Below are positions 5,691 to 47,225 of a stretch of 64,000 nucleotides of DNA, one piece after another. The position numbers and the translations under genes were made by a program. This DNA comes from Bryopsis sp. KO-2023 (Eukaryota; Chlorophyta; Ulvophyceae; Bryopsidales; Bryopsidaceae), in contig BSYQ01000005.1 of assembly GCA_030272585.1 (NCBI GenBank), positions 3,627,501 through 3,691,500 on the forward strand, written 5' to 3'. Every line of letters begins with the position of its first letter. Position 1 is the stretch's first letter. The notes below the pieces were generated by a model. The model saw only the letters and a program-made list of their open reading frames with translations. It had not been told where the DNA came from and ran no database searches.

Positions 5691-5756
5691 GATTAAGGAG
5701 GTGGACTCGAAATCCACCGGGTTTATCCCGCGCAGGTTCAAATCTTGCTCTCAGCG
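5691..5756 (+). pseudogene. tRNA-Ser(CGA) 3' part, cut by LINE1
   Basis: It begins at gene base 17 (GATTAAGGAGGTGG, the expected target duplication) and keeps the anticodon arm with CGA, variable arm and T arm. The T stem has a C-to-T change compared with the array genes. The first 30 bases lie beyond the 5' end of LINE1, outside the window. Confidence 0.85.
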
Positions 5757-18100: not shown

Positions 18101-21100
18101 GGCAATCAAATCTTTTTGAATTGCTACTCTTGAGCTCTGCAAACGCTTCACCTCAGCACCTTGTTTATGCAAGGACTCCCGAAACAATTCTAGAGTCCGT
18201 TCGACTTTTTCATTGGAATCCGCAACAGTTCCTAATAAGCCTTCAATTCTCCGCCCTTGAACAAGGGATAACTCGGAGAGTTGTTTTAACTGAAGTGCTG
18301 AGGCTTCAGTTGCTTCTTTTAGGTCAGCAAAACGAGAGTCCGCTAGAATGTCTGCGGCATCCATTCTCCTCGTTATTGCATCCACAGAAGCTTTGATCTC
18401 GGCTCTTTCTTTCCTATGGTCGATATCTTGGCGTAATAGCCTCTGCTCGTATCGACTATGTTGAGCCGCTACTGAATCCAGCTTCTGCTGTTGCGACACC
18501 ACCGCATGCTGTGTGGCCTCAACCTGTTGCGCATGCTGGTGCTGTGTTTCCAGCGCCTGCCCGATCACCTCTGATGCGCCAGCCAGTTGGTTCGACACAG
18601 AGGCCTCAGTATGGGCTAGCCTCTGCCCCAGTGTCTGGTCAACTTGCTGCAGGTGACCCCTTAGCCCGTGGGCTAAATCGTCCACACGGTCATGGACCGC
18701 GTCCACATCCTCTCTTAAGGCTTCCGCATCAGCTCCCATGTCTATGTCGACAGCTGCTTGCTGGACATTGTGGATGTTCTGGACGTTTATTTGTTGATAC
18801 ACAACATTGGGTGCGTCAGGCAATTCCTCATCGAACTCAGGTTCAATCCCTGGCTCTTCGACTTGAGGCTCGCGCACTGCCAATGCGTGTTCACGGTCAG
18901 CCATGGTCTCTCAGCCACTATTTGGGAGTACTCAACAACCACGGTTGGAGTTTCTCTCTACCAAACAAACAAACAAAAACGTTTGTTGCGCCACGTTCAC
19001 AAGTTTCGATCTCAAGAACTTAAAGTTCTTGCCTAGCTCCGAAACCAATTGATAGTGAAGCTTGTGGGTGACGCAATAGTGGTCGGCTGTGTTGATTGGA
19101 TTCGTGATAACTTGCTGGCTAACGCAAGTATACTTGTGGGGTTTGTTGATTTAGACAACTCTCTAGCTAGCGCGGTTGTGAACGCTACTAGAGCACTTGG
19201 GTTGGGAAGTGATTGCGTCAGGCAAACACTTAACACACACACACACAAACACACACACAAGCGGGAACACACCAATCCCACGAATCCCGAGTTCTTACAA
19301 AATAAAGTGAACGTCAAAACAACGAGTGGGCCTCTTAAGTACCCCTAAGTGTAGTACGCTGACGCATGCCCCAAACTCTGGGTCTAATCTGTCTTACTCG
19401 TGAACCCACATGCGTCAGCCACCCTCGGCTCTATCCCAAACTACCTCGTGAGCGCTAAAAGACTAACAACGCCTGCTCGGACTTTTGCCACAGCGTTTAA
19501 TTCCATTTCCGACCTTCGACTTAATGCATCTGCAACTGTATTTTCTTTTCCAGGTTTGTATTTAATCTCAAAATCAAACTCCTGTAAAGTTTCCATCCAC
19601 CTAGCCTGTCTACTGGATAATTTAGGCTGCGTCTGAATATATTTCAGCGGAGCGTGGTCCGTGTGAACCACAAATTTCCTCGCCCCCAAATAATGTCGCC
19701 AAGTTTTCAAACAATAGACTATCGCATACAGTTCTTTTTCGTGTGTCGGATAATTCCTTTCAGCTGAATTTAATTTCCGACTTTCAAACGCGGCTAGTTG
19801 TTGCCCCTGACCTTGATCTTGCGTCAAAACTCCTCCAATAGCAAAATCCGATGCGTCTGTAGTTACTTCAAAACTCAACTCCGGATCTGGAATTATCAAC
19901 ACAGGTGCCTCCTGCATGCTCTTTTTTAGCGTCTGAAACGCTTTCTCCTGACTTTCAGTCCACTGCCATTTAACTTCCTTCCTTGTTAGTTCATGTAACG
20001 GCGTTGCAATCCCAGAGTATCCCTTAATAAATTTCCGATAATAATTCGCTAAACCCAAAAACGACCTAATATCCCGAACTGTCTGAGGTTGTGCCCACTC
20101 CTGAATGGCTAAAACTTTCTTAGGTACCACGGAGAGTCCCTCTCTTCCGACTATGTGTCCCAAAAATTCGACTTCTGTCATCCCCAAATCACATTTGTCC
20201 GGTGAAACGTAAAGTTTGTGTTTTTCGAGTAGCTGAAACACTTGTCTAAGATGTTCCTTATGCTCTTCCCAGTTCCGACTGTAAACTAAGATATCATCGA
20301 GATAAACTATAACAAACTTATCCAGATGTGGTCGAAAAACATCGTTCATCACATTCATAAAAGTTGCTGGTGCATTTGTCAACCCCATTGGCATAACTGT
20401 GTATTCGTAAGATCCATATCTAGTTCGAAAAGCAGTTTTCGCCCAATCCTTTTTTGCCATCCTGACTTGATAATATCCCGAACACAAATCTATTTTCGAG
20501 AAGTATTTTGCGCCATGAAGCTGATCTATCGGTTCATCTATTCTTGGAATCGGGTAAGCGTTTTTCACCGTCACCTTATTCAATGCCCGATAATCTACGC
20601 ACATACGTAGTTTCCCATTTTTCTTCGGTACAAAAATTACCGGTGCTCCCCAAGGTGATCTACTCGGTCGAATAAACCCTTTTTCCGACATGGCTGCAAT
20701 CTGAGTTTTCAGTTCTGCCATTTCCTTGATGCCTAATCGATAAGGTGCTTTACTTTGTGGAACCGTGCCTGGTTCCAACTGGATCGTGTGCTCGATACCT
20801 CTGGAAGGGGGTATCTCACTGGGTAATTCTTCCACAAAAGTATTAGGAAATTCCTGTCTGATTTCTGCTGCAAGTTCAGCTTGTCTGGAAACATTTTGTT
20901 CAGAGTCAGTTCTGTTCAAACATGTTTCAAACACCATCAGCACATACTGTTCCTCTTCCTCCTCTCCGGGGTTTGCCGGAGGAATCAAATGTTCTTTCAG
21001 CCCGTCTGAAACTACTACCTCATTTGTTCGAAAATCAACCCGGGGATTATGCTTAGCCAGCCAAGTTTTTCCCAATATAGCATCATACTTAGCAAGAGAC

Positions 21101-21609
21101 ATTTCATGAAAAATCTCCCTACTAGCAAAATCTCCAAATCTGAGAGTAGCCCTGATCTTCCCTTTAGATTCTAAGGTACTTCCCCCAGCCAGGCTAACTT
21201 TTTCTTCTTGTTTTTCTAATTCCAGTTTATTTTTCTCGCAAAATTTTCGAGCTAAAAAGCAATCAGTTGCTCCACAATCTATTAATATCTCAGCTGCAAA
21301 ACCTGAGATTTCCCCTTTCGCAGTAATCAGTTGTCTAGTTCGGTTATCAGTTTCAGCCACTGCTAGAAATCCGAACTTAGTCATGTCTAAATCTGTCCCA
21401 TCAAATGAATGGACTTCTAGGTTATCTAGGTTATCAGGTCTAGTCGGTTCCTTGGACGTTTCTTGCAACGAAAAATCCCTCGAACTCCTTGAATTCCTCG
21501 AACTCGCAGGCTTCCCCTTAACTTCACACCCTGCGAGTTTACCTAACATACTCATTTTCGCGAGGGGCATTCTCGAGCGTAATGCCCTCGACGCCCACAC
21601 TTGTAACAC
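9116..21609 (-). CDS. Gypsy A pol: protease-RT-RNase H-integrase-chromodomain (split by gypsy B)
   Basis: The coding segments are 21609-19469 and 10574-9116; together 1199 codons, in frame once gypsy B and one copy of its ACGCC duplication are removed. Visible in order: protease DCGA near residue 112, RT with YLDD near 437, RNase H with TDASD near 585, the integrase H-H-C-C finger starting near 780, DRDTRF of the DDE core near 908, and a C-terminal chromodomain near 1140-1190 (EYLVSWEGY). Chromodomains steer integration of chromoviruses to marked chromatin. Pol starts in the -1 frame relative to gag and overlaps its end (21609-21552), so a -1 frameshift is expected. The break falls between RNase H and integrase. 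Confidence 0.92.
10580..10998 (-). repeat. Gypsy B 3' LTR
   Basis: 419 bp from TGATAGTG to GACTAACA. It contains a CA-rich run near 10765-10800. Confidence 0.95.
11193..11888 (-). CDS. Gypsy B 3' accessory ORF with CxxC...CxxHxxC...CxxC pattern
   Basis: The frame is open for about 230 codons after pol but lacks an ATG before the first CxxC motif; a TAG stands at 11892-11894. It may be reached by splicing or frameshift, or begin at a non-ATG codon. Ligand clusters are C-x2-C at about 11646-11662, C-x2-H-x2-C at about 11562-11584, and C-x2-C at about 11358-11372. The order and spacing type match the accessory ORF of gypsy A, though the rest of the sequence is different. The tail is Gln/Ala-rich. 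No signal peptide or membrane segment is visible. Function unknown; a zinc-binding fold is inferred. Confidence 0.6.
   Translation of the reverse strand: MCKRSELLSEKESKDAQTVVYIFLSDKHNGCRYTRRNYCEIGPITASEKWPKVQYTNPRDRALQNYRGNRHFHELPMCIWCGRSPMQASAQRLTQKKYSVLPCGYHLVCDAHWLAYSMLGRIVTAVQKVAEVDNKSIATVSPFSLPAHMLTLTRSTFEEIPPFPAEHEKLPHCNMCVKRQLKVSGITRDLPFLKSKRVAAAFDPCVRYRAVQQAHAQEQRANQQAQAPEQR
11889..12253 (-). other. Gypsy B spacer between pol and accessory ORF
   Basis: 365 bases without a clear ORF. If the accessory ORF is spliced, its first exon or 5' splice site could lie here or upstream. Confidence 0.4.
12254..18904 (-). CDS. Gypsy B gag-pol polyprotein, single ORF
   Basis: 2216 residues from an ATG 145 bases inside the 5' LTR. 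The N-terminal 300 residues are Gln/Glu/Ala-rich and likely coiled coil. A Gly/Pro-rich linker at about 540-590 precedes the gag capsid region (about 620-740). The CCHC knuckle is near 852-866, followed by a very basic stretch. Pol continues in the same frame: protease DCGS near 1065, RT FIDD near 1443 (F for the usual Y/L), RNase H TDASN near 1590, integrase zinc finger near 1793, DRDPRF near 1926, chromodomain about 2150-2200. No stop or frameshift separates gag from pol, as in Tf1-type elements, so the Gag:Pol ratio must be set after translation. The frame is intact. Confidence 0.95.
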   Translation of the reverse strand: MADREHALAVREPQVEEPGIEPEFDEELPDAPNVVYQQINVQNIHNVQQAAVDIDMGADAEALREDVDAVHDRVDDLAHGLRGHLQQVDQTLGQRLAHTEASVSNQLAGASEVIGQALETQHQHAQQVEATQHAVVSQQQKLDSVAAQHSRYEQRLLRQDIDHRKERAEIKASVDAITRRMDAADILADSRFADLKEATEASALQLKQLSELSLVQGRRIEGLLGTVADSNEKVERTLELFRESLHKQGAEVKRLQSSRVAIQKDLIALEKKASKTWDQQQDAADVVALRLSGLERSMEDVSGGSQSAQSGSDARAVSPEREESTSPEPEDSAFGMPLPKKSVKQLAASWPPLDQSFAVGMVGAGTSTIPAPPAVQVEEGEIVAAEAPPCTAVDSAPDADFTFPQLIPPSTRAQPGVRISEPDSADGSRRPTRINPRVLSSAEVLYQIDLERAKAQVREEKGKEPMQIPTRTGRLGLGLSALGARVENNPFAALGSYESTGGPSRVPRMRGNFGDPGDDDPDDDGGDDYRDRRNRPPSRIPGAPDGGGGGGGGGDGGGGGPPGGPPDGGGGGGGAGPAGPGPPRQGQWLPSTVKLQMPRAFNGSGEPKARKWQVLMTRYLRTCGVHEAQWQSIMATNLYGAASDWLTMQELKIHRGERPPFRDWMDFMDGLATAFEFSSDRDEAWRDLHKLKQTGTVKQFVKEFQRLVLRIPDLEEDHQYLLFVDGLKSEVQKLVAATVPRDVEAAIISAERLEALGVGTQGQGGQTNPKKKGVWRGGRKKKGQNQGQQQQNPTPPAQAPPQAAAGVQQQQQQQQGRGGGRGGGGRGRGGGNRGRGQANQGRQNPQGGGGYNCYLCGKKGHPVRQCPRLEEVKNLPDVKKNVKLTARQETASSEPGRRKRRKRNRVRRRRRKHRSKVGASKKVKSTHSGKPEERTSTPREERTETLSTSTQSAHDNCDWNNEQKESTPDEMDAPHASSASLPSVSESVGSLESQSSLQESLPADVDDSGSETTQRSTTERVNVSEVRSTSSTKGDTCPLLKIQEVPVRGYEVKARIKTTDLYAFIDCGSTANYINDKVARDLGLSITPSSKRAMLANGDIKELAGSCNNLRVKIGGLKCKMKADLFPDLGYDLILGMPWLQKENPRIDFQQNEISVCKNSQVFHLPLRHPTQESIEPERKVQSILQEVPVTECSAKRMMRHLKTETAFMVVVQESEEKALGQHELPDAIERTQPFNTEDEIGKLIRSDTPAEIKKVVETHRGVFPRDLPPGIPPKRKGHEFKIDLEDPTPIHRPIYKLSPAELDEVKAQVDYLLEQKKIKPSESPWGAPILFVPKKDGGLRMCVDYRWINKVTVKNRYPLPLPEELMDRVFKAKVFSKLDLRSGYWQFPVRPSDTDKTAFRTRYGHFEFLVAPFGLTNCPAQFQTLVQDLLAEFLDDFVVVFIDDILIFSENMEQHAEHLEKVLSRLAEYQLFAKASKSELAVATVDYLGYRISGSGLEPQEQKVKAVKEWKELQSVSDVRSFLGMVSYYRKFIPQFAHVAGPLHDLVKKDHPWRWGQVERGAFNELKKRLSQAPVLIFPDASLPYTVITDASNEAIGAVLTQDHGEGLQPIAYLSRRFKPAELNYAPYDKELCAICYAMVQWRHYLEGCAGGVTVFTDHQPLTHILSQRNLSRTQARWLEAGYLTSINPKISYIKGKANVLADALSRSVPKPVETAMNISTWQVHQASQDEWKQALQADNSLVKILRKLESGEEVEGYFLREGILWTVPKRGLVEKVVVPKGQRNKIMKECHETPSAGHTGPARTGEILARRYWWKGWMNELKAFVRECPVCQQIKADTQKPMGLLQPLPIPERKWEQITTDLVTDLPASNGFSAVAVFVDRLTKFVHFAPCTKEITAAGYAQLFIEHVYRNHGLPKVIVSDRDPRFTSKFWQTLFKALGTEIRMSTAYHPQTDGQSEVTIRTLENFLRPYAERYPHKWVEYLPTAEFAANNAVNASTGFAPAYLMYGYHPETPNIGGTVTQFQVEAVKTMVARMAQDLDTAKAYYSRAQHRMCVSANKKRKDIAFEKGDKVLIKSRFIPLAALNKVSPKLRRRFVGPFEIVEKISKVAYRVQLPETWLIHPVFHVSKFKRYHASSDNSRQIQPPEGELIGSEVEYEVENILRARGKRNREYLVLWKGYDLLDATWEPEANLVNAPDILRAFKEKERKELQKGRE
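18905..19049 (-). promoter_or_regulatory. Gypsy B leader and primer binding site
   Basis: TTGGTTTCGGAGC starts right inside the 5' LTR (about 19036-19048 on the plus strand as its complement). The rest is a short leader with a CAAA repeat. Confidence 0.8.
19050..19468 (-). repeat. Gypsy B 5' LTR
   Basis: 419 bp; I see no difference from the left copy. Confidence 0.95.
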
Positions 21610-24600
21610 TTCACCTCTCCGTCTGCTTTTTCTTTCTTCCAGACTGGCTTATTTCTTTCTCTCTCTTTATCACCTCGCTGTCTCTGCTGTCTCTGTTGTC
21701 GCCTCCTTCCGACGTAGTCCAACTCCATGTGATCCGATCTGCGATTTCCGCCGCCGCCGCCGCGATCTCGATTCAAGATCGAATTCCCGGATTGAGCTCC
21801 TCCCCACCTTTCCGCCACTCGAATAGCTTCATCCAAGGTCTTGGGGTTTTGGAGGTCGGTCTCGATGCCAACCCTCCCTCGCAAACCATCGACGAACTTG
21901 TGTATTTTCTCGCCCTCTGATGCGTCGGAAATATACAACATCAGCTGTCTAAAGCGATGCGTGTATTCCCGCACAGACATTCCGCCTTGGCGTAAATTCG
22001 CCCATTCTGTCCGTGTGCGGCGCAAAAAATGCGGTTCCCCGAACTGGTTCTTCAGCTCCTCGCAGAAGTCCTCATGTTAGACTTGGGGGTGCAAGTCTAA
22101 GAAGAGCTAAAAACTAAAACTTATGAGTCCATGACCTTGAAGCCCATTAATACCATGACCCCCAAGGATCCTAGCGTCCCCGCATGGTACCTAGGACAAC
22201 CATCCTAGGTGGGCACCCGACATAGGTCTAGTCATCATGACTAGACCTGACTCACATGTCCACGTCAGCATGACTACGCATGACTGTACATGACTGTACA
22301 TGACTGGACCTGACTGGATGTAGCTCTTAACATCCCTAACATACCTCCCCCCCTAATCAGTCTCCTCCTGGAGACTCCTTTCCGCACTTCTATATAGCCC
22401 ATAGAATGATACAGAGTCCCACAACGAACCCCAACTCTTATCATTCAACTATATAAAGTGTTTCGATAACTTGGAGATGTTATCATAAGTGTATTCGTCA
22501 GAATAAGCCCCTACTCTGATATAGGTCATCCGAGTCCTTCTCATACACGGAGTGCTTCTCGGATCTACCAAGACCATACACTTCTCTACACTGGTGGCGA
22601 ACCAATGTACATCAACTGAAGTCTCGCAACTTCATCTACTTCCATTTATATTCTCATTTTGAATGGATCCCATCTAGAGTTCAAAATAGAATATAGCGAG
22701 AAATTCAATTTAGTTCACTAGTTCATTGAAAATGAGATATGTTCTGAAACATGTCCTCACTTAACGAGAACTTGATCTCGTTCACAAGATCTGGAACTCT
22801 TTTCATATCGACACTCGATTATGAAGAAACATTACCCCACACAAGTCACGAACGAAGTCGCCTACTTCGACGTACCGGAATAGGGGGAATCAACGTTGAT
22901 TTCTTTCTCTTCTGGTACTGCTCTACCAGCTCCCGAGCGTTCTCCAAATTCGCTTCAGGCTCCCAAGAGTTGTGCTCATGTGAGTATCCCGTCCACTTTA
23001 CCAAGTATTGCGGAACTACTCGTCGACCGACCTTTACTTCACGGTAGTCGAGGAGGTCTTCTACCTCATACTCTAGTTCTTCCTGTATATCCACAGGTGG
23101 CGGAGGAGGTTGTGTCTTTCCATGCGACCAATACCTCTTAAGTAAAGAAGCATGAAAGACTGGATGAATAGGAAGCGAATCAGGCAATTCCAATCGGAAC
23201 GCGACCTGTTCTGCCATCGGTTTTCGTTTTTGGACACCTTCCAAAACACGAAAAGGACCCAACCAACGTGGCAATAACTTCCTTGATCCAGGGTGTTTCA
23301 ATTTGATATGTCGTGCATCCAGCAAGACCATATCGCCTACTTGAACATCAACTGAACACCTACGCACATCAGCATAAGTTTTCATCCGTTGCTGAGCACT
23401 TTCTAAACACCGCTTTGCTTTGACAATCGCCTCACGAATGTCCTCGGTCATCTTCTTCACCGCCGGTACTCCAATCTGTGTCCTTTGTCTACTCAGACCT
23501 CCAGGACCCATGACATTAGATGTCTTGGATGGAAGTTGTACCGTTAATGGTGTCCACGGATCTCTACCGTAGTTCAAGAAGAACGGTGTTTCACCAGTAG
23601 CCATCGACTTAGAGTTGTTCAATGCAAACTCTACCACTGGCAACAAGTCACTCCAATCTCTTTGACGAGGTCCTACGAAATGCCGTAAGGTATCTTCGAG
23701 GATCCTATTCATTGCTTCAGTCTGTCCATCACTCTGTGGATGAAAAGCTGTCGACAATGCTTGAGTGACCCCTAAGGTCTTACAAAGCTCTCTAAAGAAC
23801 TTTGAAGTCCACCTAGGATCTCTATCGCTTACGAGGTGCTTAGGAAGACCGTGCAAACGGAAGACCTCAGTAACGAAGAGTTTCGCCGTTTGTACCGCAT
23901 CACACGTAGTGTGCGTTGGTACGCATCGCACCATCTTTGTGAGTCGATCCACAAAAACTAAGATAGCGTCAAATGCTTCCGCTCCTGATTTAGGCAAATC
24001 AGTAATCAAATCCATTGAAACCGATTCCCATCGACCATCAGGAATACGTAAAGGTTGCAAAGGACCAGGCACCTTGCCGCGACGGTGTTTGTTCCTTTGA
24101 CATGCATCGCATCCCTTTACAAAGTTTGCGATATCTCCCTCTACGCCAGGCCACCAAAAGTATTTTAAGACTGTTCTTTGGGTCTTGCGGATCCCAAAAT
24201 GTCCTACATATACACTTGCATGGCTATCATGTAGGATATCTTCTCTAAGATTATCCCAATTTGGTACTACTACTCGTGCACCATTCCACCACAGGCCTGA
24301 GTGCTTTTGACAACCTGAAGCGGCGACATCTTCGGTTTCAAACCACTCATCCCTAGTGATCCCCTCAGTCAATCTCTCCTTTAGCATCGACGTACCGGGC
24401 CGGGGCGAGGACGGATCCCCATTCCAAGTTGGTCGTTTCTGGCCACCTCCCAGCTCCGAGAGTATTCCGATCTGCTGAGAATACGACGGATATCGTGACA
24501 AGGGGTCTGCCACGTTCGTCCGTCCCGGCCTGTATTCCCACTCGAACCGGAACCCCTGGAGGACTTCGAGCCAACGTGCCGACCTTCGAGAGAGAGTTTC

Positions 24601-27600
24601 CTGGGAATGGAAATATGTGTTAGGCTGGTGATCACACACCACCTTAAACACACGCACATCCAGGTAGCATCGCCACAACTTAAGAGCATGCACTACGGCG
24701 AACATTTCCTTGTCACCTATGCTCCAGTTAAGTTGGGCTCCTGATAACTTTCGACTTTCAAAAGCTATAGGATGTTCCTCTTGCAACAAGATTGCACCGA
24801 TCGCATAATCCGAAGCATCTGCGATAACTTCAAAATCCTTTTCGAAGTTAGGCATTGCCAAACAAGGTGCATGTGTTAAATTCTCTTTAACACCATCAAA
24901 GCCTCTTTGACAATCCTCGGTCCAACTCCACTCTTTACCCTTCCTAAGTAACTTTGTGAGTGGGGCTACAAGCTTGCTGTAACCTTGCACAAATCTCCGG
25001 AAATAGTTAGAGAGCCCTAAAAATGAACGCAATTCCGCAACGTTCTTTGGGACTGGCCACTCTACTACTTTCTCTGTTTTCCTTTTGTCAGCGGAAATAC
25101 CATCTTGATTTATAACAAATCCAAGATAGTGAAGCTCTTTCTTAAAGAAATCACATTTTGATCTCTTCAAGAACACTTTGTGCTCACGCAAGCGTTTCAT
25201 CACCGCTCGCAAATGTTGCACATGTTCCTCCGGAGTTTTGCTGAATACAAGTATGTCGTCAAGGTAGATTAGAACCGACTTCCCAATCATACCCGAGAAT
25301 ACTTGATTCATCCAAGTCTGGAATACTGCAGGTGCATTCGTCAAGCCCATTGGAAGCACTTTGTATTCATACAGACCGAATGGGGTTTTGAAAGCAGTCT
25401 TCGGTTGGTCTGACTCCTTCACTCGAAGTTGCCAATACCCTGCTTTCAAATCTAAGGCCGAAAAGAACTTCGAACCTTGCAGTTGATCAAGGAGATCATC
25501 TATCCTTGGTAGTGGATACTGATTCCTGATCGTCAACTTATTTAAGCCTCTATAGTCGATACACATTCGTCGAGTACCATCTGGTTTGGGAACAAACAAG
25601 ATTGGTGCACCCCACGGACTACAACTAGGCTTAATCAAACCCTTCTGCAGCATATCAGAGACTTGATCTTCAATCTCTTTTCTTTCACCCGGTGTGTAAC
25701 GAAACATTGGTCTATGTACCGGTTTCGCTCCAGGGACAAGATCAATTGCTGCATCCTCTTCTCGAGATGGAGGGCATTCCGCCAACTCATCTGAGAATCT
25801 GTCTTTATACTCATCTAACAGACTTTCCAGCTCTGTTTGATATGAAGACACTCGAGGATTTTTGGGCAATTCGGGTACCCCAGATTCCTCCCCCTCAAAA
25901 GGGTTCGGGACCTCCCGAACTATAACCAGAAAAGGACATAACTCCGTATTACGGAGTTGTCTTCGAGCTTGGGCTATACTCAACAAGGGATTGATCCGTG
26001 CATTAGGCGGACTAGGGGCACGCACAACCAAATTAGGTCGTATCGTGAGTCGGTTTCCCCGTGTAGCTAGAACCGAAGCACTACCAGTAGAAAAATTCAT
26101 CAGTACTCGGTGATTGCATAACCACACATCCCCGAGGTACAAATCAAAATGCTTTGTAGTGATGACTTGACACTCGATTTTCATCCGCAAGCCTTGCAAA
26201 CGCAAGTTAATCGAGGTTATCCCTACGATATCCAATGGAGTTCCATCGGCCATTTCGATTTTGGTACCTTGCTTACATCTATAACTAAGCCCTGTGCTTT
26301 CGCAGAAATGCTTGGAGATATAAGCGTAGCCAGCGGCGCCAGAATCTAACAGAATCTGACCAGGGGAACCAGAAATCAAACCTTTGAACGACATTGACAT
26401 TCTGAGATTACAATCCTCTCCTGGAATCGAGTTACCGGGTAACTCCGCTGTAGGTGGATCGTAATATATATCAACGGGCCAAAGAAGACCTGGTGCTTTA
26501 CCGCTGCTAAGAGCAAACAATTTTGCTCCTTTTCGATATTGTGCAATCAATCGCATTTGATTGATTTCTTTTTGTCTAACTGCCATATTATGAGGGATTA
26601 AAAAATCGTTCGTCCAGGATCCATCCAAATATGGTGTCCCGCTACTGACGATGCAAGAAACTCTTGTCCAGTGCAAAACTTTTTACAAATCGCAAATCTT
26701 TCATCATTGGTAGATGAGTCAAAAGTGAACTCTCTACTTGCATTCTGCAAACGATGAAGTTCCGATTTTAAAAGTTGCATTCCAGAGATGCAATCGTTCT
26801 CCGGCACCTTCTCTTCTTTACTAGGCATAGGATCTTGGGCGTCCCCAATGGGATCGACGTCCAAATCATCCTCACCACATCGGATAGAGTCATCATTTCT
26901 GTCAACAGACATAACCTGGTCAGGGTCATTCTCCACAGAAATATCCGATTTGTTCTCGGGCTTCGTAATATCCGTATCCATCGGATCAAATATTACATCT
27001 TTCGGATCTGAGTTTTTCGATACCTCCTTTCGAGATAACCCAGATGCAAGAACTTCTATACTAGGAAGTTCTTTCCCGAAACAAGCGAGACTCTTCCGTA
27101 CCTTTCCAGTATCACACACATGACCTGGAGAATAAGATGCTCCACATCTGAAACAAAGGTTCGCGGCCTTGCGCCGTTCCCACTCTTTCTGGGTAAGACC
27201 CGCAGGAAAAGATGTTTTACCAACTTTACTCTTACGAGTCTGTTGAGAACCACCACCAAATCTCGATGTAAAGCTCGGCATCATTCGGTTTTTCTTCCGA
27301 TTAACCGGATACACCTTTCCTTTTTCCTCTTTTCGAGATCTCTTTGATCCAACGGTACTCTCCTCCTTTTCTTTGGCACCTTTTTCCAATACTGGGTATC
27401 GCTCATCATGCGATACTCCTTTTGCCAATACATGGGTACGGAATTCCTCATATGAAGTCCATTCATGACCCGAAGTATCAGTGGCAACCGCTTCCTTCAA
27501 CACTCCATGGAGGTTGCGGTGTAAGAACCAAATTTTTGAAATACTATCAATTTTGGTCTTACGAAGAGTAAAATATGTGTCCATTTGGCGCACATATTCT

Positions 27601-33718: not shown

Positions 33719-33856
33719 CCGATCACGACGATGAGGAGGCGACGAGGCCGGTGACGAGGCTGGTGACGAGGCTGATGATGAGGCCGGTGACGAGGATGGA
33801 CCACGGGACGCCCCATGATGACGTGAGTTGGGGTGTCCGAGTGGTTAAGGAGGTGG

Positions 33857-34539
33857 CCTTTCTCTTGAAAAAATGTTTCGTGAAAAATTTTTCTATTCGC
33901 CGTTTTGTGTGGTGACACCCGCTTCACTCGCCGGAATCGACTGGGATACACACGCCCCAAGGACTCGCCACCCTCCCTTGAGGTGGCCCTCATTTTTTCG
34001 AAGCTCTCCAACGAATTTTGGCCATTTCTGTGGTCGTCATCAGTTGCTGTTGGGTCAAGGGATGCGCCTGCGAGTGGATTTTCGCTGGCAAACACTCGCT
34101 TATACCTACTGAGGAGTCGAAACTCAGTCCATCACCCAGGCTGGACCACTGCGCGACATTTGGGGACTGCTACTGGTTTGCTGTGGGATCCTCACAAAGG
34201 TCGGAGAATTCCTTTGTCATTCGTCACGGCTTGCCTATCTCGGCCTCACTTGCACCAGACGACACCTGCTGAGGAGTCGAACCTCAGTCCACCACCCAGG
34301 TCTGTTTGCTCTCGATTCTATCTCTGATCGTGACGCCAGGGTCGTCACTGCGGACGTCGGGAGTTTCTGGCTGGTGGGTTCTATTCGTCAAAGACTCCAC
34401 GAGAGTCGGTGGGCCACTAACCTCACAGTTGCGTTCTTTATCCTCTCCCCTCTTGGGTTGGCTCGGTTTTTGCAGTGGATCTCTGGAGCTGTTGGGATCG
34501 AAGTCGAGATCAGACCCTCCTATTTTCGAAAGGGTCGTT
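33857..34539 (+). other. LINE2 5' region
   Basis: About 680 bases before the likely ORF start. The reading frame is open back to about 34306, but the first well-placed ATG is at 34540. No other gene seen. Confidence 0.5.
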
Positions 34540-36756
34540 ATGGGACGCACGAGTCACAACTGGCGGAAAGGCTTGCGCGCGCAGGGCGACGCTCAGGCGA
34601 TGGGAACACCTAATTCCAACGAGGATTTGGTGGAGGTGACTCTTTTTTGGAAGGCGCTCAACAGTGTGGAGAGAATTTCGTCAGTGGTGTTGGACTTTGT
34701 GAGTGCCCTTGGGTCACGCAACCCCTCACTCAAGGAGGTGCCCTTGGACAAGGTTTTGGAAGGGGATCATATATTTGGTGAGATTGTTGCTGATCTGTTC
34801 GACTCTATGGGACCACTACTCACTCAGGCTGTGGAGGACTTTGGGAAGTATTCCCCTCGAGAATTTGGGTTTTCTACTTTGGCCACTGCAACTGCTAAGA
34901 TCATAGCTCCCAATTCACATTTACAGTTACAATTGGAATCTCAGGAGCAAACCAACAGAACACCACACAATCATTCAAGGGACGGTTTTCAAGCCCATGA
35001 GAATTCTGGCTTGCAAGACCCACAATCATCTCATTCTCGAGACCATCACATTTCTATGGGGGACTTGTCTTCGGTTCCTTGGGATGGATCAGTGGATGTC
35101 ACTCAGCAACACTTGGATAAGGAGAGGACTACCAATTCAGTGGCGACGCTAGCAACGACTCCCTCGGGGGAAGACAGTGGATCCTATAGAGAAGGGGCTC
35201 CTTTTTTCGTACCTACACATATCGACCACGACACCAAACAAAATGTTCGGGATGACTCATATTCCATTCGGTTGCAGCCTGTGAATGATCAGGGTATACG
35301 GATGATTTCTCCTCGTTTCATGGCATCTACACTTCAAGCTTGGATTCGTGGCCACACCCCAGATTTTGCACCTGGGATCGTGGATGTGCGAAGGAACTTT
35401 AAGGGAGAATTTTTCATTCAGTTTGAACCAGCTGATTGGGCTAAGGTTAACGAAATTCTACAGATGCCAAATGGGGATGGCTTGACAATATCACTCAAGG
35501 CTTTGGGAAACTGGAAAAGACTACCACAAGTACCTCTACCATTAAAGGGAGCAGCTGCATTTTTGGATGACTCTGGAGAACACACCAACATACCCCAGGG
35601 TCGCCAGGAAACAACTGATGGGTCAGCTCCAACGCTGGCTACGATTGATAAGGAGGCAGTTAGACGAGGCAGCGATCTTCTGCCAAGGACAGACTCCATT
35701 CAGTTGCCACACGCCAAGGAGTTGGACCTGCAGCAAATTCAACATACTCTGACCGACGTAATGGAGGAGATTGATGAAGTTGGGAATCACACCGGCAGTA
35801 ACAATCAAGAGGAAGGGAGGGTACACTTTCGTGACAGGGGCACACTCAAGGGAGGACAAATAACAACCCAGCAAGGGCACCGGGATACTATACAAATTGA
35901 TCATGAAACACAAGGGACACTTCTGAACACAAGGGACACTCATAGACTTGATCAGGTTGGGAATCACACCGGCAGTAACACTCAAAAGGAAGGGAAGGTA
36001 CACTTTCATGACAGGGGCACATTCCAGGTACACGGCTTAAGGCACAGAAGTTCTCATGGAGAGTTTGAATTTGAGGGCACAGAAACATTACCATGTACTC
36101 AGCCAGCCACCTCCAAGCGCCAGGGGTCCCTCCACTCTCTCTCTACTCAGGTGGATCATTTGTTACAAGGGGTTATGGATCAGGTTGCCAGTGGGAAGGC
36201 ATCTGCAGGGGACATTGCATCACACACTAAAAGGATACCACAAAGGACAGTGAACACAAGAGGAACTGCAGGTCACAAGGGGGTCAAGAGCCAACAGAGC
36301 CACAAAAGGACTTGGGACTCTCACAAAGGGTTTAAGGATGCAAAGTGGCACTCACAGCGAACACAAGGAAAGAACGAGACCTCGGCGACTTGGAAACGAT
36401 CAACCAACAAGGGACGAGATGTGAAACATACCAAGATCCAGGAAAATACAGGCGCTCATTTCACCAGGCATTCGCCCACTATCGTTCCGCCCTTCTCGCC
36501 AGGGATCGCTGCTGCCTACGGCTGGTGCCGAGGTCAGTATTGTCGGTCCAACTCACTCCAAGACGATTGGCTATCGCAGCACCCTTGCGCGATACACTGC
36601 TCCTCCATCGTGCCCCCCTACTGGCCTGGGTGGAACGCGGTAGAATCGAACTACCCTGCACCGTTCGTTCCTTGGCTACAGCCCTTCGACCTTTCGGAAT
36701 TTCGCGACACTGGTCGTCCATGGCCAGGGTATCGACGTCGAAGACAGTGGGTTTGA
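34540..36756 (+). CDS. LINE2 gag-like ORF
   Basis: 738 residues from the ATG at 34540. Residues at about 235-330 match LINE1 ORF1 closely (shared IRLQPVN, FMASTLQAWIRGHTPDFAP and FEPADWAKV-type stretches). After the common LPQ motif the two proteins part: LINE2 continues with a hydrophilic region containing two copies of a 25-residue repeat (VGNHTGSN...VHF.DRGT, near 35779 and 35958). It lacks both zinc knuckles. The frame is fully open across more than 2.2 kb, which would not last without selection or recent birth. A gag-only LINE partner is known from Drosophila HeT-A; here the role is inferred. Confidence 0.75.
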   Translation: MGRTSHNWRKGLRAQGDAQAMGTPNSNEDLVEVTLFWKALNSVERISSVVLDFVSALGSRNPSLKEVPLDKVLEGDHIFGEIVADLFDSMGPLLTQAVEDFGKYSPREFGFSTLATATAKIIAPNSHLQLQLESQEQTNRTPHNHSRDGFQAHENSGLQDPQSSHSRDHHISMGDLSSVPWDGSVDVTQQHLDKERTTNSVATLATTPSGEDSGSYREGAPFFVPTHIDHDTKQNVRDDSYSIRLQPVNDQGIRMISPRFMASTLQAWIRGHTPDFAPGIVDVRRNFKGEFFIQFEPADWAKVNEILQMPNGDGLTISLKALGNWKRLPQVPLPLKGAAAFLDDSGEHTNIPQGRQETTDGSAPTLATIDKEAVRRGSDLLPRTDSIQLPHAKELDLQQIQHTLTDVMEEIDEVGNHTGSNNQEEGRVHFRDRGTLKGGQITTQQGHRDTIQIDHETQGTLLNTRDTHRLDQVGNHTGSNTQKEGKVHFHDRGTFQVHGLRHRSSHGEFEFEGTETLPCTQPATSKRQGSLHSLSTQVDHLLQGVMDQVASGKASAGDIASHTKRIPQRTVNTRGTAGHKGVKSQQSHKRTWDSHKGFKDAKWHSQRTQGKNETSATWKRSTNKGRDVKHTKIQENTGAHFTRHSPTIVPPFSPGIAAAYGWCRGQYCRSNSLQDDWLSQHPCAIHCSSIVPPYWPGWNAVESNYPAPFVPWLQPFDLSEFRDTGRPWPGYRRRRQWV

Positions 36757-37097
36757 AGTGGGGTTTTTCTGAAAGTGTGATGTGGGGGAATTTGTTATTT
36801 GCGCGATGGGAATGAGAGTGAGAGCGCTGTGGGTTAGGTTACGTGAGGGGTTCTTTTTTGGGACAGTTCACTTTTTTCGGCGCTGCTGCAAGGCAGTCTC
36901 CGGTTGTGTTGTACAATTAATTGGGACATTCATTTTTGCCGATATAAAAAAGGCAATGTAATCAAAAATTCCAGGTTAAGGAGGTGGACTAGAAATCCAC
37001 TGGGTTTATCCCGCGCAGGTTCGAATCCTGCCCTCAACGAGGCGAGTGTTGAGTTCGCAAACGGAGGGGGTTTCGGAAAGGTTGCGAAAAGGTACGT

Positions 37098-37297: not shown

Positions 37298-37383
37298 GCC
37301 TCGGTGGCGCAGTTGGTTAGCGCGTCGGTCTCATAACCTCGTGAGCCATCCGGAGGTCACCAGTTCGATCCTGGTCCGGGGCA
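37298..37383 (+). tRNA. tRNA-Met(CAT), intron-containing, copy 1
   Basis: Acceptor GCCTCGG/CCGGGGC and loop CTCATAA; about 12 extra bases sit after the anticodon at the usual 37/38 site. Looks like an elongator Met gene. Confidence 0.93.
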
Positions 37384-37449
37384 CTCCTCTTCTTTTCGGT
37401 CGAAGGAGAGCATCGCGCACACGAAAAAATGGAACGATCGGGGCACGCT

Positions 37450-38506: not shown

Positions 38507-38632
38507 GTTTGAGGGAGGGGAGGGACGGAAGGGATCCATGGGACGGCAGCCTCCCATCGGGGTCGACGGATGCAAGGGAGACGCTCGCCGCACGCTGAAC
38601 GAGCTGAGATGTCCGAGTGGTGAAGGAGGTGG

Positions 38633-39055
38633 AGAGAGAGAGGAATGTGGGTTGGGTTACGTAAGGGTTTCTTTTTGGGGACAGTTCATTCTGTTCACGG
38701 CGCTGCCGCAAGGCAGTGTTACAGCCGTCCTGGCCTCCCAGAACGGCCGGATTTCGTTCAAGGCGTGTCAATGAGCCTGGCGGTACGATTGTACCACAGG
38801 TCAGCTCACTGGTCACATCGATGGGACGGGTGAGTCGCATGTGACTCACCTGTACTACACTACAGTCTACTTAAGGCGCACTTCGCGCCATTGTAATCAT
38901 TCTTATTATTCTCTCACGCTTGGTCACTCCAGCCAGTCGTGACAGGCAGTTTCCGGATTCGTGAGTGGGACACGGGACTGGGTGTTGTACGTTCAACTGG
39001 GGATCGGACCTCAAAATTCCGCCGATGTACAAAAGGCGTGTAAAAATGAATTCCA
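38633..39055 (+). mobile_element. 5'-truncated LINE fragment carrying a solo LTR
   Basis: About 190 bases of LINE 3' UTR (similar to 5527-5690), ending AATGAATTCCA, with a 228-bp solo LTR inside at 38717-38944. It is part of every array unit, so it predates amplification of the array. Confidence 0.88.
38717..38944. repeat. solo LTR in the LINE fragment
   Basis: 228 bp from TGTTACAG to CGTGACA, flanked by GGCAG on both sides (38712-38716 and 38945-38949). LINE1 lacks it at the same point. Its family is not otherwise in the window. Confidence 0.8.
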
Positions 39056-39163
39056 GGTGAAGGAGGTGGACTCGAAATCCATTGGTGCTGTCATCGTAGC
39101 GCTCCGTCACAGCGTTGATGGGGCGCGCAACAACGACGCAGGAGGCGTTTGGGCCGTACGAGG

Positions 39164-39835: not shown

Positions 39836-39917
39836 GCTGAGATGTCCGAGTGGTTAAGGAGGTGGACTCGAAATCCACTGGGTTTATCCCGCGCAGGTTC
39901 AAATCCTGCTCTCAGCG
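39836..39917 (+). tRNA. tRNA-Ser(CGA), copy 2
   Basis: Perfect acceptor and T stem; target sequence GGTTAAGGAGGTGG intact at gene bases 17-30. TTTT lies 13 bases downstream. Confidence 0.96.
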
Positions 39918-40149: not shown

Positions 40150-40231
40150 GTTGGGGTGTCCGAGTGGTTAAGGAGGTGGACTAGAAATCCACTGGGTTTA
40201 TCCCGCGCAGGTTCGAATCCTGCCCTCAACG
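40150..40231 (+). tRNA. tRNA-Ser(AGA), copy 2
   Basis: Acceptor GTTGGGG/CCTCAAC, loop CTAGAAA. This is the empty-site version of the gene broken by LINE2 in copy 1. Confidence 0.95.
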
Positions 40232-41675: not shown

Positions 41676-42529
41676 GTTTGAGGGAGGGGAGGGACGGAAG
41701 GGATCCGTGGGACGGCAGCCCCCCATCGGGGTCGACGGATGCAAGGGAGACGCTCGCCGCACGTTGAACGAGCTGAGATGTCCGAGTGGTGAAGGAGGTG
41801 GAGAGAGAGAGGAATGTGGGTTGGGTTACGTAAGGGTTTCTTTTTGGGGACAGTTCATTCTGTTCACGGCGCTGCCGCAAGGCAGTGTTACAGCCGTCCT
41901 GGCCTCCCAGAACGGCCGGATTTCGTTCAAGGCGTGTCAGTGAGCCTGGCGGTACGATTGTACCACAGGTCAGCTCACTGGTCACATCGATGGGACGGGT
42001 GAGTCGCATGTGACTCACCTGTACTACACTACAGTCTACTTAAGGCGCACTTCGCGCCATTGTAATCATTCTTATTATTCTCTCACGCTTGGTCACTCCA
42101 GCCAGTCGTGACAGGCAGTTTCCGGATTCGTGAGTGGGACACGGGACTGGGTGTTGTACGTTCAACTGGGGATCAGAGATAGGACTTGGGCCGATTTTTT
42201 GGTCCGGCTCCGGTCCGGTCCGGTTACGGTCGGGTTACGGTCACCGTACTACGGCCGTAACTCCGTACCGTAACCGGACTCGTTTACTCCGGTTACGGTC
42301 CGGCTGATTTACGGTTGGTTACGGTCCTGGTTACGGTGGTTTTTTATGGTTTACGGTTTTACGGGTTACGGTGTTACGGTCAGAATTTACGGTGGTCCGG
42401 TGGGTCAATTACGGTGTTACGGTCAGTCTTTTACGGTTGTTTTTACGGTCCGTAGTGCACCGTAGTTGCCAAAGTACGGTACGGGATGTACGGAGTCATT
42501 ACGGGTCACTACGGTTGCTACGGTCACAC

Positions 42530-43125
42530 CTGATACAGGGAGAAACATCCACAGAGTGGTTGTAAAACCATTTATATTTGTTCCCACCCAGCCCAACATC
42601 CCACAGAGTCCCAACAGGTCATGAACCCACAGAGTCACAACCATTAACTCAAATGATCCCACCCATCAACCCACAGAATCCCAACTGTTTATCAACCCAC
42701 AGTATCCCAACAGCCCATCAACCCACATAATCCCAACAGCCCATCAACCCACAGAGTCACAACCATTAACTCACATGATCCCACCCATCAACCCACAGAA
42801 TCCCAACTGTTTATAAACCCACAGTATCCCAACAGCCCATCAACCCACATAATCCCAACAACCCATCAACCCACAGAGTCACAACCATTAACTCACATGA
42901 TCCCACCCATCAACCCACAGAATCCCAACTGTTTATAAACCCACAGTATCCCAACAGCCCATCAACCCACATAATCCCAACAGCCCATCAACCCACAGAG
43001 TCACAACCATTAACATCCCATCGGATGATTCATTTTGATTCTATTTTTTTTTTGGTTTTCCCCCCCCCTTCCCCCCCCTTCCCCCCCCTCCCCCCTTTCC
43101 CCATTGAATCACCCCCCCCCTCCAA
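42530..43125. repeat. 121-bp minisatellite and C-rich tract in hAT
   Basis: About three and a half copies of a 121-bp unit made of shorter CCCACAGAATCCCAAC-like words at 42590-43017, then C-runs at 43050-43125 just after the transposase stop. No ORF. Confidence 0.8.
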
Positions 43126-46100
43126 TCAACCCCGCTCTTCACACCAGCCCGATAAAAGTGAAAGCTCGGTGACGTGATCATCGGATAACCGTGACCTTCT
43201 AGAACGCACTATGTGTCCCAGTTTTGAAAACGCACGCTCACTAGCAGCTGAGCTGCTTGGGACAGCAAGATACCGACGAGCCAACTCACTGACTATCGGA
43301 AGTCGACTTTTATTTTCCCGCCACCACACCAGGGGTTCACTACACTTGCCCATATTCTGTCTCTCACCCAGAAATCTGTCTATTTCATGCAAAGCCAAGG
43401 TCCTGTCACCCCCACCACCACCGTCATCGCTGTCATCGCTGCACAAGACTGTGCTTATGTTCCCTTTTCTTTTTTTGGTTTGTGTGGCTTGGACGGTGAT
43501 CTCCCCCTTCTCGATCAGATCACGTGCATGATCCGAAAGCAGTATCCTGAGGTGCCTCAGCATGGAGGACTTGTGGAAGAGGAGTCTCTCAGGGTAAAAC
43601 CGGAGCATCCCCTGGGGAGCAGGAAAATCAGCTTGGTTGTCGGGCAGCAGTTGCAAAAACAGGTACGCTTCTTCGAGGGATCGCCACCGCACTGACACAT
43701 CCATAAGAGCGCACAACATCCAGGCCAGCCCGAGCTGCGGGTCGCTCCATTCCTTCTCCAGCTTGTCCACCATGGCATACACAATTGGCGACAGCGCCTG
43801 GATGTTCGGTGGGGGGGATCTCCCCTCCTTCACGGCCTCCACATTTGTTCTGATCCAGTCTTTCCAAAAACTGTGGATCCTCGCGAACGTCAGGACCACC
43901 CTCCCGCTTGTCACTGTTTTCGATGCCTCCAATCTAAAACAAGACATCACATTGAATGAATACTTGATAAATAACGGGCTGCAGTTCAGTTTGTTATTCC
44001 CTGTTTTTTCTTTTGTCGTTTTGTTCACACTACTTGAAAAATCATACATCTTCTCAATAATCAAGTTTTTTGTTTGGTTTTTTTTCTGCAATGTTGTACT
44101 TACAGGTGTGTGGCATCCCTCGCAATTTTCAGCAACTCCAACAGGCTCTCCAGCAGCGTCCACTGCCGTGGTGTTATTTCACGGTGCTCATCCCCCTCCC
44201 CATGTTGCTCAGCTAGCAATCGATCGATTGCTGGCCTGAGCCTCACGGCTCTCTGGAGCATGATGAAGGTGCTGTTCCACCGTGTGCTCACGATCGTGGG
44301 GAGTTGCAGCACCCTAGGTTTTCTTGGTGGGGGTGCCGGCTGCGATGATGGTGCACCAGACTGTTGCGAAGGGCCACCAGCCTGTTGAGAAGGGCCAACC
44401 ACTTCCACATCCATGGTCTCTGCCGTGCCCTCTCCCTGCAGATCACACAACACTTGTCACCTCACAGACATGCATTGAAATCGATTGGAACACAACATGT
44501 CAATGATAGTGAAAATTTGTTCGACCGTAAAAAACCGTAAAAAACCGTAAACACCGTAAAACACCGTAAACACCGTAAACACCGTAAAAAAACCGTAAAA
44601 AACCGTAAAAAACCCGTAAAACACCCGTAAAACACCCGTAAAAAACCGTAAAACACCGTAAAACACCGTAAAAAACCGGAAAAAACCGGAAAAAACCGGA
44701 ACCGGACCAAAATTTTGGAAAAAAAAATACAACTCAATAATCACCTGTGATGTCAGATCTTCCACAGCAGCAGCAGCAGCAGCAGCTGCAGCAATATCAT
44801 CAAGATCCTGACTGGTGGGACCCTGCAGCCAAACAACACCCAAAACAAGCCATTTAGATGTCAGAAAAAATTCAACTTATAACAAGAAGCAAGCAGCAAC
44901 ACAGAAAAAGGGAAGTGAATGGAAGCAACAGAAAATAAAGGAGAGTTTATCCACCTGTGGCGCCATATCCTGTGCATCCTCCAGCGAGTCCTCGCTTTCC
45001 TCCTCCCCGAGGTCCGCCGGCATGTACTCCACCTCCCCCCCCTCCCCCCCTTCCCCCCCTTCCCCCCTTTCCCACATCTCTACCTGAGCCTGACTGAACT
45101 TAGTTTTAAAAGTAGAGGAGCGCCGTACATGGGCTGCTACCCCTTTCAACACATCTATTGCCTCTAGTAGTAAGGCCGTGTGTTTATTGACCCTCCCAAT
45201 AACGCCTATATGCCCTAAGCCCAGCTGCACCACATTGTGGAGCATGTGCAAGGAGCACCTGAGCCAGTCAAATTCTAATTCTTCTTGAAGGGCCTTCCTA
45301 ATATTCGATCCACAATCTGAAATTATGGTCGGCCTCATTTCTCCTAACTGAGCTGACCCCCCAAAGTACCCCTGAAGCAGTTTTGGAATTTCCACCGAAA
45401 GAACCTCTGCGGTTATGCTTGTATACTCTAACCTATGCGATCCTAATGTCCTAGTCTGCAAAACCCACTCTGTATCTACCCAGCTGCATGTGAATGTTAT
45501 ATATTCACATGAAGTCCTACTCTTCCACAGGTCGGTCGTAAAAGCGGTTACCTTCCATGGGACGGACCTCGTCAACCTTTCCATCTCGCTCTTGTAGACA
45601 GAACTGATCTCGCGCTTTATGGTTTTGGGATCCACTTTTGGGCATTTGGGTTCAAGCACCCTGGCGAACTCGAGGAAGGCTGGAGTGCATGGAGTCCCAA
45701 AAGGAAGGGAGTCCCTCGCCACCCACTTTGCCGCTTCCCTGACGAACCTCTTGTATCCGGCACTGCCGGCTTGGTAGCGCACATTCTGTACATCACACAT
45801 GCACATCAGCACCACATGCAGTCCCCCAAAATTCAGGCTGGAAATTCCAGCATCCAGCAACACAACAACACATGCAGTCCCCCAAAATTCAGGCTGGAAA
45901 TTCCAGCAACACAACAACACATGCAGTCCCCCAAAAATCAGGCTGGAAATTCCAGCATCCAGCAACACAACAACACATGCAGTCCCCCAAAAATCAGGCT
46001 GGAAATTCCAGCATCCAGCAACACAACAACACATGCATTAACATCACAAGCAATCACAAACCTACCCGGTGTAGAGACTTGGATATCAGCGTCTCGGATG

Positions 46101-46594
46101 GGTCCTCGCTTGACTTCCCCCCCTTTCCTGGCTTCAAATGGCCTGCTGCTGCCATTTTCGACGTCCATTCTGCTAGTGGGAAGTCCTTCCCATCCTTCGC
46201 AGCATCATCGATCCACCCCTTGGCAGTGGTGAGGACATCATGGTCTTTCACACCATGCCTCCCAGAGCAGTGGGACTTGAGGCCACTGTAGGACCCCTTG
46301 GCTGCAGACATCCACACCAAAATAAAAAACTACTCCAGAAATATTAACCCAGAAAAAGAAAAAAAAAAAAAATACAAAATACTTACACCAAGAGCACATG
46401 TGTCCGCACAGCAAACACTTCAGCTTGACCAGCCTGTCCTCTTTTTTCTTCCCCTTTTCTCCTTTTACATAGGCCTCCCACGAGCCGTCGTCGAGCTGCA
46501 CCACCAGGGTCGCCAGCGGTGCGTAGTCGACAGGACGCAACCCCGCATCCTTTCTGACCTCGCCCATCAACTGAACATCCGACGTCGCCGACAT
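43126..46594 (-). CDS. hAT transposase, six exons
   Basis: My exon model on the minus strand: 46594-46387, 46301-46066, 45785-44955, 44822-44745, 44435-44104, 43933-43126. All introns are GT-AG and the joined frame gives 830 codons without a stop. A BED-type zinc finger crosses the first intron (CLLC near residue 65, then GLKSHCSGRH). Catalytic-core candidates are D in TTDLW near 233, D in ISDCGSN near 305 and E in SERAFS near 794; the C-terminal end is the hAT dimerisation region (YLAVPSSSAASERAFS). Low-complexity runs encode Gly-Glu and poly-Ala stretches. The enzyme would cut at the CAGAG ends and make 8-bp duplications. Splice sites are predicted by eye. Confidence 0.85.
44520..44705. repeat. 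CCGTAAAA repeat block in transposase intron 4
   Basis: About twenty units of ACCGTAAA-type words, the same motif as in the element's subterminal regions, here inside an intron. Confidence 0.8.
45816..46042. repeat. 56-bp minisatellite in transposase intron 2
   Basis: Four full units starting CATGCAGTCCCCCAAAA at about 45816, 45871, 45920 and 45976, plus a partial one at 46032; one unit is 7 bases short. Confidence 0.85.
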
Positions 46595-47225
46595 ACTGAA
46601 CACACTCCGGAAAAAAACGAAAACACACCGCGAGACAGTAGAAAACCAAAGGAGAAACTAGCGATGGGAGAGTGGCTAGGTTATAAGGGAGGTTGCGTAC
46701 GACGGGACAGCTTCCCACCGTAACTCCTCTTTACGGTGGAACGGACTCCGGTTTGCGGTTTACGGTGTTACGGTCACGTGATTACGGCGCTACGGTGGAT
46801 GATTTACGGTGCTACGGTTGTTGATTTACGGTGAGTTTACGGCATGCTCCGGTGTACGGTGATAACCGAACCGTAAATCCGTCATTTCATGCTCCGGACC
46901 GCCGTAATGACGCCGTAGTACTACGGATAACATTTACGGTGGTCCGGTTCCGAGCACGAAAACCACTCCGGTCCGGACCGGAGTGACCGTAACCGTAAGT
47001 GACCGGAGTGAGGTTACGGTACGGTTTACGGTACCGTAACCGTAAAGTCCTATCTCTGCTGGGGATCGGACCTCAAAATTCCGCCGATGTACAAAAGGCG
47101 TGTAAAAATGAATTCCAGGTGAAGGAGGTGGACTCGAAATCCATTGGTGCTGTCATCGTAGCGCTCCGTCACAGCGTTGATGGGGCGCGCAACAACGACG
47201 CAGGAGGCGTTTGGGCCGTACGAGG

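Follow-up and report, generated by a model that had tools for sequence, protein, structure and literature searches.

The window analysed here is the whole stretch of 64,000 nucleotides at C5:3627501-3691500 (C5 being contig BSYQ01000005.1) of the green alga Bryopsis sp. KO-2023, whose genome assembly comprises 91.09 Mb in 28 contigs. An exon of a carboxypeptidase gene from this assembly matches BSKO_07929 of that alga, a member of the Bryopsidales, at 100% identity along 97% of its length. It holds members of a family of long interspersed nuclear elements (LINEs) that interrupt genes for tRNA-Ser. ARAGORN finds 86 tRNA genes in the window, and the right half is a tandem tRNA array built of 3,193-bp units. 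The family is present as LINE1, of an autonomous type, as LINE2, of a non-autonomous type, and as a truncated copy repeated with the array units. Judged from the sequence, this is very probably (about 0.87) a sequence-specific LINE family that uses the multicopy tRNA-Ser genes of Bryopsis as its home.

Insertions in the tRNA-Ser genes of the window

LINE2 lies in sense orientation after base 30 of a tRNA-Ser(AGA) gene, and bases 17-30 of the gene recur after its 3' end. This duplication measures exactly 14 bp, as the first-pass annotation of this DNA had described, because the neighbouring base differs on either side. The last base of LINE1, 5690, is followed immediately by base 17 of a tRNA-Ser(CGA) gene, again in agreement with that annotation, with the detail that base 18 is A and not G (GATTAAGG). 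The 5' end of LINE1 is out of view, the sequence directly upstream of the window being N. The family thus uses one junction between tRNA-Ser bases 16 and 17 and another between bases 30 and 31, in sense orientation and with an exact 14-bp duplication.

The array fragment is flanked by GGTGAAGGAGGTGG on both sides (e.g., 38619-38632 and 39056-39069), and its 423-bp insert is a 5'-truncated LINE 3' end that carries an extra insert of about 0.23 kb. Seven 5' junctions and eight 3' junctions of such copies are found within the window. The 14-bp duplication had been correctly noticed, but its host, taken at first for a tRNA-Ser(CGA) gene, resembles one only to about base 42 and is a relic beyond; with the insert removed in silico, ARAGORN finds no tRNA in it. 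The exact string of an uninterrupted gene with the GGTG variant (GAGTGGTGAAGGAGGTGGACT) has 0 matches in the genome. The extra insert of about 0.23 kb is absent from the copies read near 2.8-2.9 and 3.1 Mb.

Table 1. Positions of the LINE copies, their tRNA-Ser targets and the tRNA array in the window
Feature	Position	Strand	Remarks
LINE1, autonomous type	1-5690	+	5' part outside window; window base 1 = element base 1388 of C16 copy
ORF1, 3' part	73-840	+	CCHC zinc knuckle (PF00098)
ORF2	1429-5412	+	1327 aa open; PF14529 aa 124-241; PF00078 aa 534-785
LINE1 3' end common to aligned family copies	5574-5690	+	ends AATTCCA
Decayed tRNA-Ser(CGA), bases 17-82	5691-5756	+	directly after LINE1
Tandem tRNA array	32700-64000	both	3,193-bp units; 12 tRNA genes per unit
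tRNA-Ser(AGA), bases 1-30	33827-33856	+	5' flank of LINE2
Target site duplication, left copy	33843-33856	+	GGTTAAGGAGGTGG
LINE2, non-autonomous type	33857-36973	+	3117 bp
LINE2 single long ORF	34306-36756	+	816 aa from TTG
Target site duplication, right copy	36974-36987	+	GGTTAAGGAGGTGG
tRNA-Ser(AGA), bases 17-82	36974-37039	+	3' flank of LINE2
Array copy, example	38619-39069	+	14-bp duplication, 423-bp insert, 14-bp duplication
Intact tRNA-Ser(CGA), empty target	39836-39917	+	half-sites CGAGT 39847-39851 and ACTCG 39866-39870 around 14 bp
Intact tRNA-Ser(AGA), empty target	40150-40231	+	half-sites CGAGT, ACTAG

Ends and targets across the genome

The census of LINE 3' ends that the first-pass annotation had called for was made by searching the genome with the last 151 bases of LINE1, and 40 of the 45 candidate places were scored. 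Ten 3' ends lie outside array units, eight of which run into tRNA-Ser base 17, all on C5 (at 3633, 3664, 3988, 2920, 5889, 2802, 2914 and 3145 kb). The remaining 30 scored places match the query in part, and all 20 that were fetched are array copies. The junction of ATTCCA with GGTNAAGGAGGTGG occurs 53 times in the genome at up to one mismatch, always on C5, and is divided into 45 GGTG (array copies), seven GGTT and one GATT. Such raw junction counts overstate the number of events, since array copies were amplified together. At two mismatches the pattern has two further matches (C3:7082118 and C8:5237583). A control with the pattern reversed has three. C3:7082118 was discarded as a family junction, as no family 3' end precedes it.

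The 5' ends, searched with the first 444 bases of LINE2, gave six candidates, all scored. Each starts at element base 1 directly after GGTTAAGGAGGTGG; five lie in tRNA-Ser after base 30, and the sixth belongs to a copy on contig C16. A search for the 5' junction returned four more matches at three mismatches, against eight in the control. Most copies therefore sit at one nucleotide of a repeated target with constant junctions, and the opposite pattern, of copies mostly outside tRNA-Ser genes or with junctions that vary, did not emerge. Intact target sites (CCGAGTGGTNAAGGAGGTGGACT, up to three mismatches) number 342, with 0 in the control; those among the matches listed are all on C5.

The autonomous and non-autonomous types

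The length of the autonomous type is about 7.08 kb, obtained by adding bases 1-1387 of the C16 copy to the 5,690 bases of LINE1. Its ORF2 unites a LINE-type reverse transcriptase and an endonuclease in a single open reading frame (ORF): an apurinic-type endonuclease (PF14529), a reverse transcriptase (PF00078, with YADD) and a C-terminal cysteine/histidine cluster. No RNase H match is found in Pfam at E <= 5. The endonuclease keeps the residues that are invariant among 11 aligned relatives (N34, Y128, D159, N161, D213 and H238). In the C16 copy, ORF2 runs for 1,317 codons from stop to stop and differs from that of LINE1 by 17 synonymous and 14 nonsynonymous changes (ratio 0.25).

The LINE2 type shares with the autonomous type both ends and the insertion site. 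LINE2 resembles LINE1 over about 290 bp within ORF1 (86%) and over its final ~135 bp (96%), and its first ~49 bp match two LINE1-type 5' ends elsewhere in the genome (86%). The single long ORF of LINE2 has no Pfam match at E <= 0.001. It stays open in each of the three copies that were compared, for 827, 808 and 729 codons between stops, with a ratio of nonsynonymous to synonymous rates of 0.59-0.70 in three pairs, a weak signal of selection.

A conserved RNA structure at the 3' end is not claimed. A model of the 3' untranslated region with two hairpins and an outer stem pairs 96.9% of cells in eight copies, but it contains one compensatory change only and 60 of 500 shuffles do as well; likewise, the fold of the 151-nt 3' end is no better than its shuffles (z = -0.77, 48 of 200 as good).

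The copy on C16 is located away from the arrays; its ORF1 contains a stop, and 8.9 kb are inserted downstream of ORF2. It keeps the exact 3' end, after which the flank begins GGTACGG. Before its 5' end stand 18 tRNA-Ser bases (GAGTGGTTAAGGAGGTGG), in a stretch without a tRNA gene. No 14-bp copy of the 3' flank was seen around it; TGTAGGAG, common to both flanks, was considered as a short duplication. We read this single case as an insertion off target whose RNA brought along part of the upstream tRNA-Ser.

Among 205 candidate ORF2 relatives in the genome 36 were scored, so that the counts are lower bounds. Pieces at least 91% alike occur at at least six places (C5:3629001, C16:727895, C5:2728301-2732171, C5:2759893, C5:3985861-3988531 and C5:3999298), five of which are on C5, which also carries the tRNA-Ser arrays. 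C5:3985861-3999681 is a rearranged locus, where a LINE1-type ORF2 piece in opposite orientation adjoins the copy at C5:3988 and another piece lies 10 kb off. More distant LINEs (27-42% identical) include C6:8332(+), C7:13871(+), C2:32370(+), C2:74389(+), C2:8811508(-) and C3:8216669-8220367(-). Each of these six places is within ~77 kb of a contig end to which its 5' end points, and together they perhaps represent a subtelomeric lineage; other distant LINEs are far from contig ends. The 1.2 kb behind one of these distant ORF2 genes contain no clear telomere repeat.

Number of independent insertions

The array copies that were read (INDEPENDENCE) have one common 5' truncation point and one private duplication variant, and are consequently counted as one insertion amplified with the arrays. 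They do add a third insertion, as the first-pass annotation had proposed, although as a single event co-amplified with the 3,193-bp units and not as many. The flanks of LINE2, in turn, agree with an empty AGA unit nearby at 214 of 214 and 200 of 200 bases. The hosts of the insertions comprise a CGA gene, an AGA gene and a CGA-like relic. The sequences thus point to at least three independent insertions: the 7-kb autonomous type, the 3.1-kb non-autonomous type and the truncated array copy. With 342 intact target sites in 91.09 Mb, the probability of a second and a third independent insertion falling on the same base of any of them by chance is about (342/91.09e6)^2, or ~1.4e-11, in line with the earlier view that three events at one nucleotide are not a coincidence.

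The copies other than those of the array units are not accounted for by such amplification. The 5' end at C5:2790103 appears to pair with the 3' end at C5:2802627. The elements at C5:2790 and C5:2917 agree at no more than 91.5% over 780 bp, although their flanks are identical. At C5:5889610-5892561 the 5' half of the interrupted gene is CGA and the 3' half AGA, a combination that cuts in two adjacent genes, or recombination, would produce.

Proposed mechanism of target choice

The sense orientation, the fixed junctions, the local 14-bp duplication and the 5' truncation suggest target-primed reverse transcription. That the duplication derives from the local target is indicated by the truncated array copy, which duplicates the GGTG variant, a variant for which no uninterrupted gene was found. 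In tRNA-Ser(CGA), bases 12-16 (CGAGT) are repeated in inverted form at bases 31-35 (ACTCG), and the inner ends of this pair coincide exactly with the two cuts; the AGA gene has ACTAG as its second half-site. CGAGT/ACTCG is the only pair of at least four bases at a 14-bp spacing within the CGA gene, and 0.2% of the window positions, the tRNA-Ser sites among them, have five outward matches so spaced. These inverted half-sites, 14 bp apart, may fix the length of the duplication.

According to the proposed model, the ORF2 endonuclease would nick the antisense strand at CC^ACTCG, and the 3' end of the element RNA (AAUUCCA) would be reverse-transcribed from this nick. The sense strand would be cut 14 bp from there, at the mirror half-site GG^ACTCG (GG^ACTAG for the AGA gene), and the fixed duplication length would result. 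The constant 14 bp would follow if a single endonuclease read ^ACTC(G) on both strands. The damage done by insertion might be tolerated because about 340 intact target sites remain.

A number of points weigh against this reading. The CGA gene has eight other inverted pairs of four or five bases at spacings of 4-24, several of which are tRNA stems, and the dyad of five bases in the CGA gene is reduced to three consecutive bases in the AGA gene. Two of the ten non-array 3' ends, at C16:718688-718839 and C2:4252930-4253058, are outside tRNA-Ser, in stretches where no tRNA was found, and five of the 45 candidate 3' ends were left unscored. The ORF2 pieces at C5:2728301-2732171, C5:2759893 and C5:3985861-3988531 have no detected ends in flanks that were read in part. 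Finally, ectopic gene conversion between tRNA-Ser genes could move copies, so the strict number of events is three and not ten.

Gene conversion could be taken further, as the process by which one ancient insertion, copied with the tRNA arrays, spread between tRNA-Ser genes with no site-specific insertion at all. The 45 GGTGAAGG junctions are indeed best read as a single co-amplified insertion, the CGA and AGA genes have 94% identity over 66 bp, perhaps enough for conversion, and the hybrid flanks at C5:5889610-5892561 fit as well. Such a history is nevertheless very improbable: the autonomous and non-autonomous 5' ends use the same base even though their likeness is confined to the first 49 bp (86%), the array copy has another truncation point and its private duplication variant, LINE2 sits in an AGA gene with fully identical flanks, and the C16 copy left the arrays with an exact 3' end. 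tRNA genes are transcribed by RNA polymerase III (Pol III), and as the insertions sit in such genes, the target might be recognized through Pol III factors, as for TRE5-A of Dictyostelium, and not through the DNA sequence. We give this a slightly smaller chance still, given the one-base precision and the roughly ten other tRNA genes per array unit, next to which eight of the ten non-array 3' ends are in tRNA-Ser and the other two in stretches devoid of any tRNA found; moreover, TRE5-A inserts close to its targets and not inside them, according to PMC3706591.

Another alternative concerns the duplication itself, which would be no true duplication if the element RNA carried tRNA-Ser up to base 30 and its 5' end were joined by homology. 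The C16 copy favours this idea, having GAGTGGTTAAGGAGGTGG before its 5' end in a flank with otherwise no tRNA gene and no 14-bp copy of the 3' flank; with GAGTGGTTAAGGAGGTGG outside a tRNA gene, tRNA sequence seems to have moved with the element at least once. As a general explanation it is unlikely, if less so than the two preceding ones, for the cDNA of the array copy ended short of the 5' part and hence without tRNA sequence, and yet this copy has a 14-bp duplication with the local variant. Homology joining via a tRNA leader may be a route for full-length copies only. A Pol III start from the split tRNA gene was also considered as a promoter for the element and rejected: a run of at least five T is found within the first 36 bases in all six 5' ends, and such runs should presumably stop Pol III.

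Site-specific insertion into tRNA-Ser can be combined with these observations into a broader, more tentative scenario, which we hold to be possible but rather doubtful. In it, an apurinic-type lineage other than R1 would have independently reached an R1-like two-strand targeting of tRNA-Ser, with one endonuclease recognizing an ACTC(G) half-site on both strands. The spacing between the D arm and the anticodon loop would set the 14 bp, an RNA start within tRNA-Ser would guide the 5' joining (as in the C16 copy), and the 3.1-kb non-autonomous family would share the machinery.

Relation to known elements

The closest structure to the ORF2 endonuclease in the PDB is the R1Bm endonuclease (E = 4.9e-8), followed by that of TRAS1 (E = 0.015), and no other apurinic-type LINE endonuclease of the PDB matches at E <= 1. 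The reverse transcriptase phylogeny that the first-pass annotation had called for was run as a quick tree of 76 rows, and places LINE1 outside the R1 side, in a separate 12-row group (SH-like approximate likelihood ratio test, 94) beside a 19-row group holding R1. This separation is not firm in the approximately unbiased (AU) test, in which neither grouping LINE1 with four rows of the R1 side (p = 0.144) nor grouping it with six of group C (p = 0.185) is rejected; group C is taken here to be Tad1-like from a motif. The first 239 residues of the sequence P0008 match chain 2ei9 (R1Bmks ORF2; E = 4.2e-161), so that P0008 is R1Bm or a near-identical R1.

R1 resembles the Bryopsis family in its apurinic-type endonuclease, its 14-bp duplication and its non-autonomous partners. 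In PMC3414825, a 14-bp duplication is called typical of R1, R2/R1 hybrid SIDEs are described as non-autonomous partners carrying the R1 3' end, and template jumps that place tRNA sequence at R2 5' ends are reported. The targets are different, since R1 of arthropods inserts in 28S ribosomal DNA and the Bryopsis LINE in tRNA-Ser. Dewa, of the Tx1 clade, is another target-specific LINE linked to a tRNA gene. Its site is a tRNA-Leu spacer and not the inside of the gene, and TRE5-A, also linked to tRNA genes, inserts at a distance, in contrast to the fixed internal base used in Bryopsis (both PMC3706591). The Dada DNA transposons, which target tRNA-Leu, tRNA-Ala, U6 and U1, share a fixed position inside a tRNA gene, but have a DDE transposase and 6-7 bp duplications (PMC3706591), as opposed to a reverse transcriptase/endonuclease ORF and 14 bp.

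The initial annotation went too far in calling insertion inside tRNA-Ser a distinct target choice. LINEs specific for tRNA-Pro (NeSL-1_TV), tRNA-Arg (LIN15_SM) and tRNA-Glu (LIN25_SM) have been published and, in PMC4640811, are treated with the NeSL group, which is counted there among LINEs with a restriction-like endonuclease; the Bryopsis LINE is accordingly not a new kind of targeting. It shares with them the specificity for, and insertion in, a tRNA gene, and differs from them in its apurinic-type endonuclease and its tRNA-Ser target. RVT_1 and Exo_endo_phos_2 are the only Pfam matches of ORF2 at E <= 5, in a database whose inclusion of a restriction-like LINE endonuclease model was not checked. 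Searches of open-licence literature brought up, among the titles and abstract beginnings listed, no report of the Bryopsis family or of any LINE that sits inside tRNA genes and has an apurinic-type endonuclease. Relative to the tRNA-linked elements compared, and as far as these partial sources go, the novelty lies in the type of endonuclease, the site in tRNA-Ser, the dyad of half-sites and a green alga as host.

An apurinic-type endonuclease is here paired with a fixed base inside a tRNA gene, whereas the known tRNA-specific LINEs in those sources are NeSL-related. The inverted half-sites offer a direct, testable rule for the 14-bp duplication. For LINEs, tandem arrays of tRNA genes would add another multicopy safe harbour. 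Having its natural target in tRNA-Ser, such an element could be of use as a model of precise insertion or as a tool for it.

Other features of the window

Within the tRNA array, the gene at 37298-37384 and its repeats are reported by ARAGORN as tRNA-??? with a four-base anticodon (cata), and may encode an elongator tRNA-Met with an intron. One array copy of a unit contains about 4.9 kb of extra DNA (41788-47131), including an ORF with a hAT dimerisation domain on the minus strand (43126-44163). Proteins of long terminal repeat (LTR) retrotransposons, with reverse transcriptase and integrase, are encoded on the minus strand at 9116-10606 and 19441-26676, with chromodomains in 9116-10606 and 22846-26676. 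The CATGACTGTA repeats at 22269 and 29485 may be the LTRs of one element. Short satellite-like repeats of the CCGTAAATTT / ACCGTAAAAA type are found at 7916-8045 and 44524-44698.

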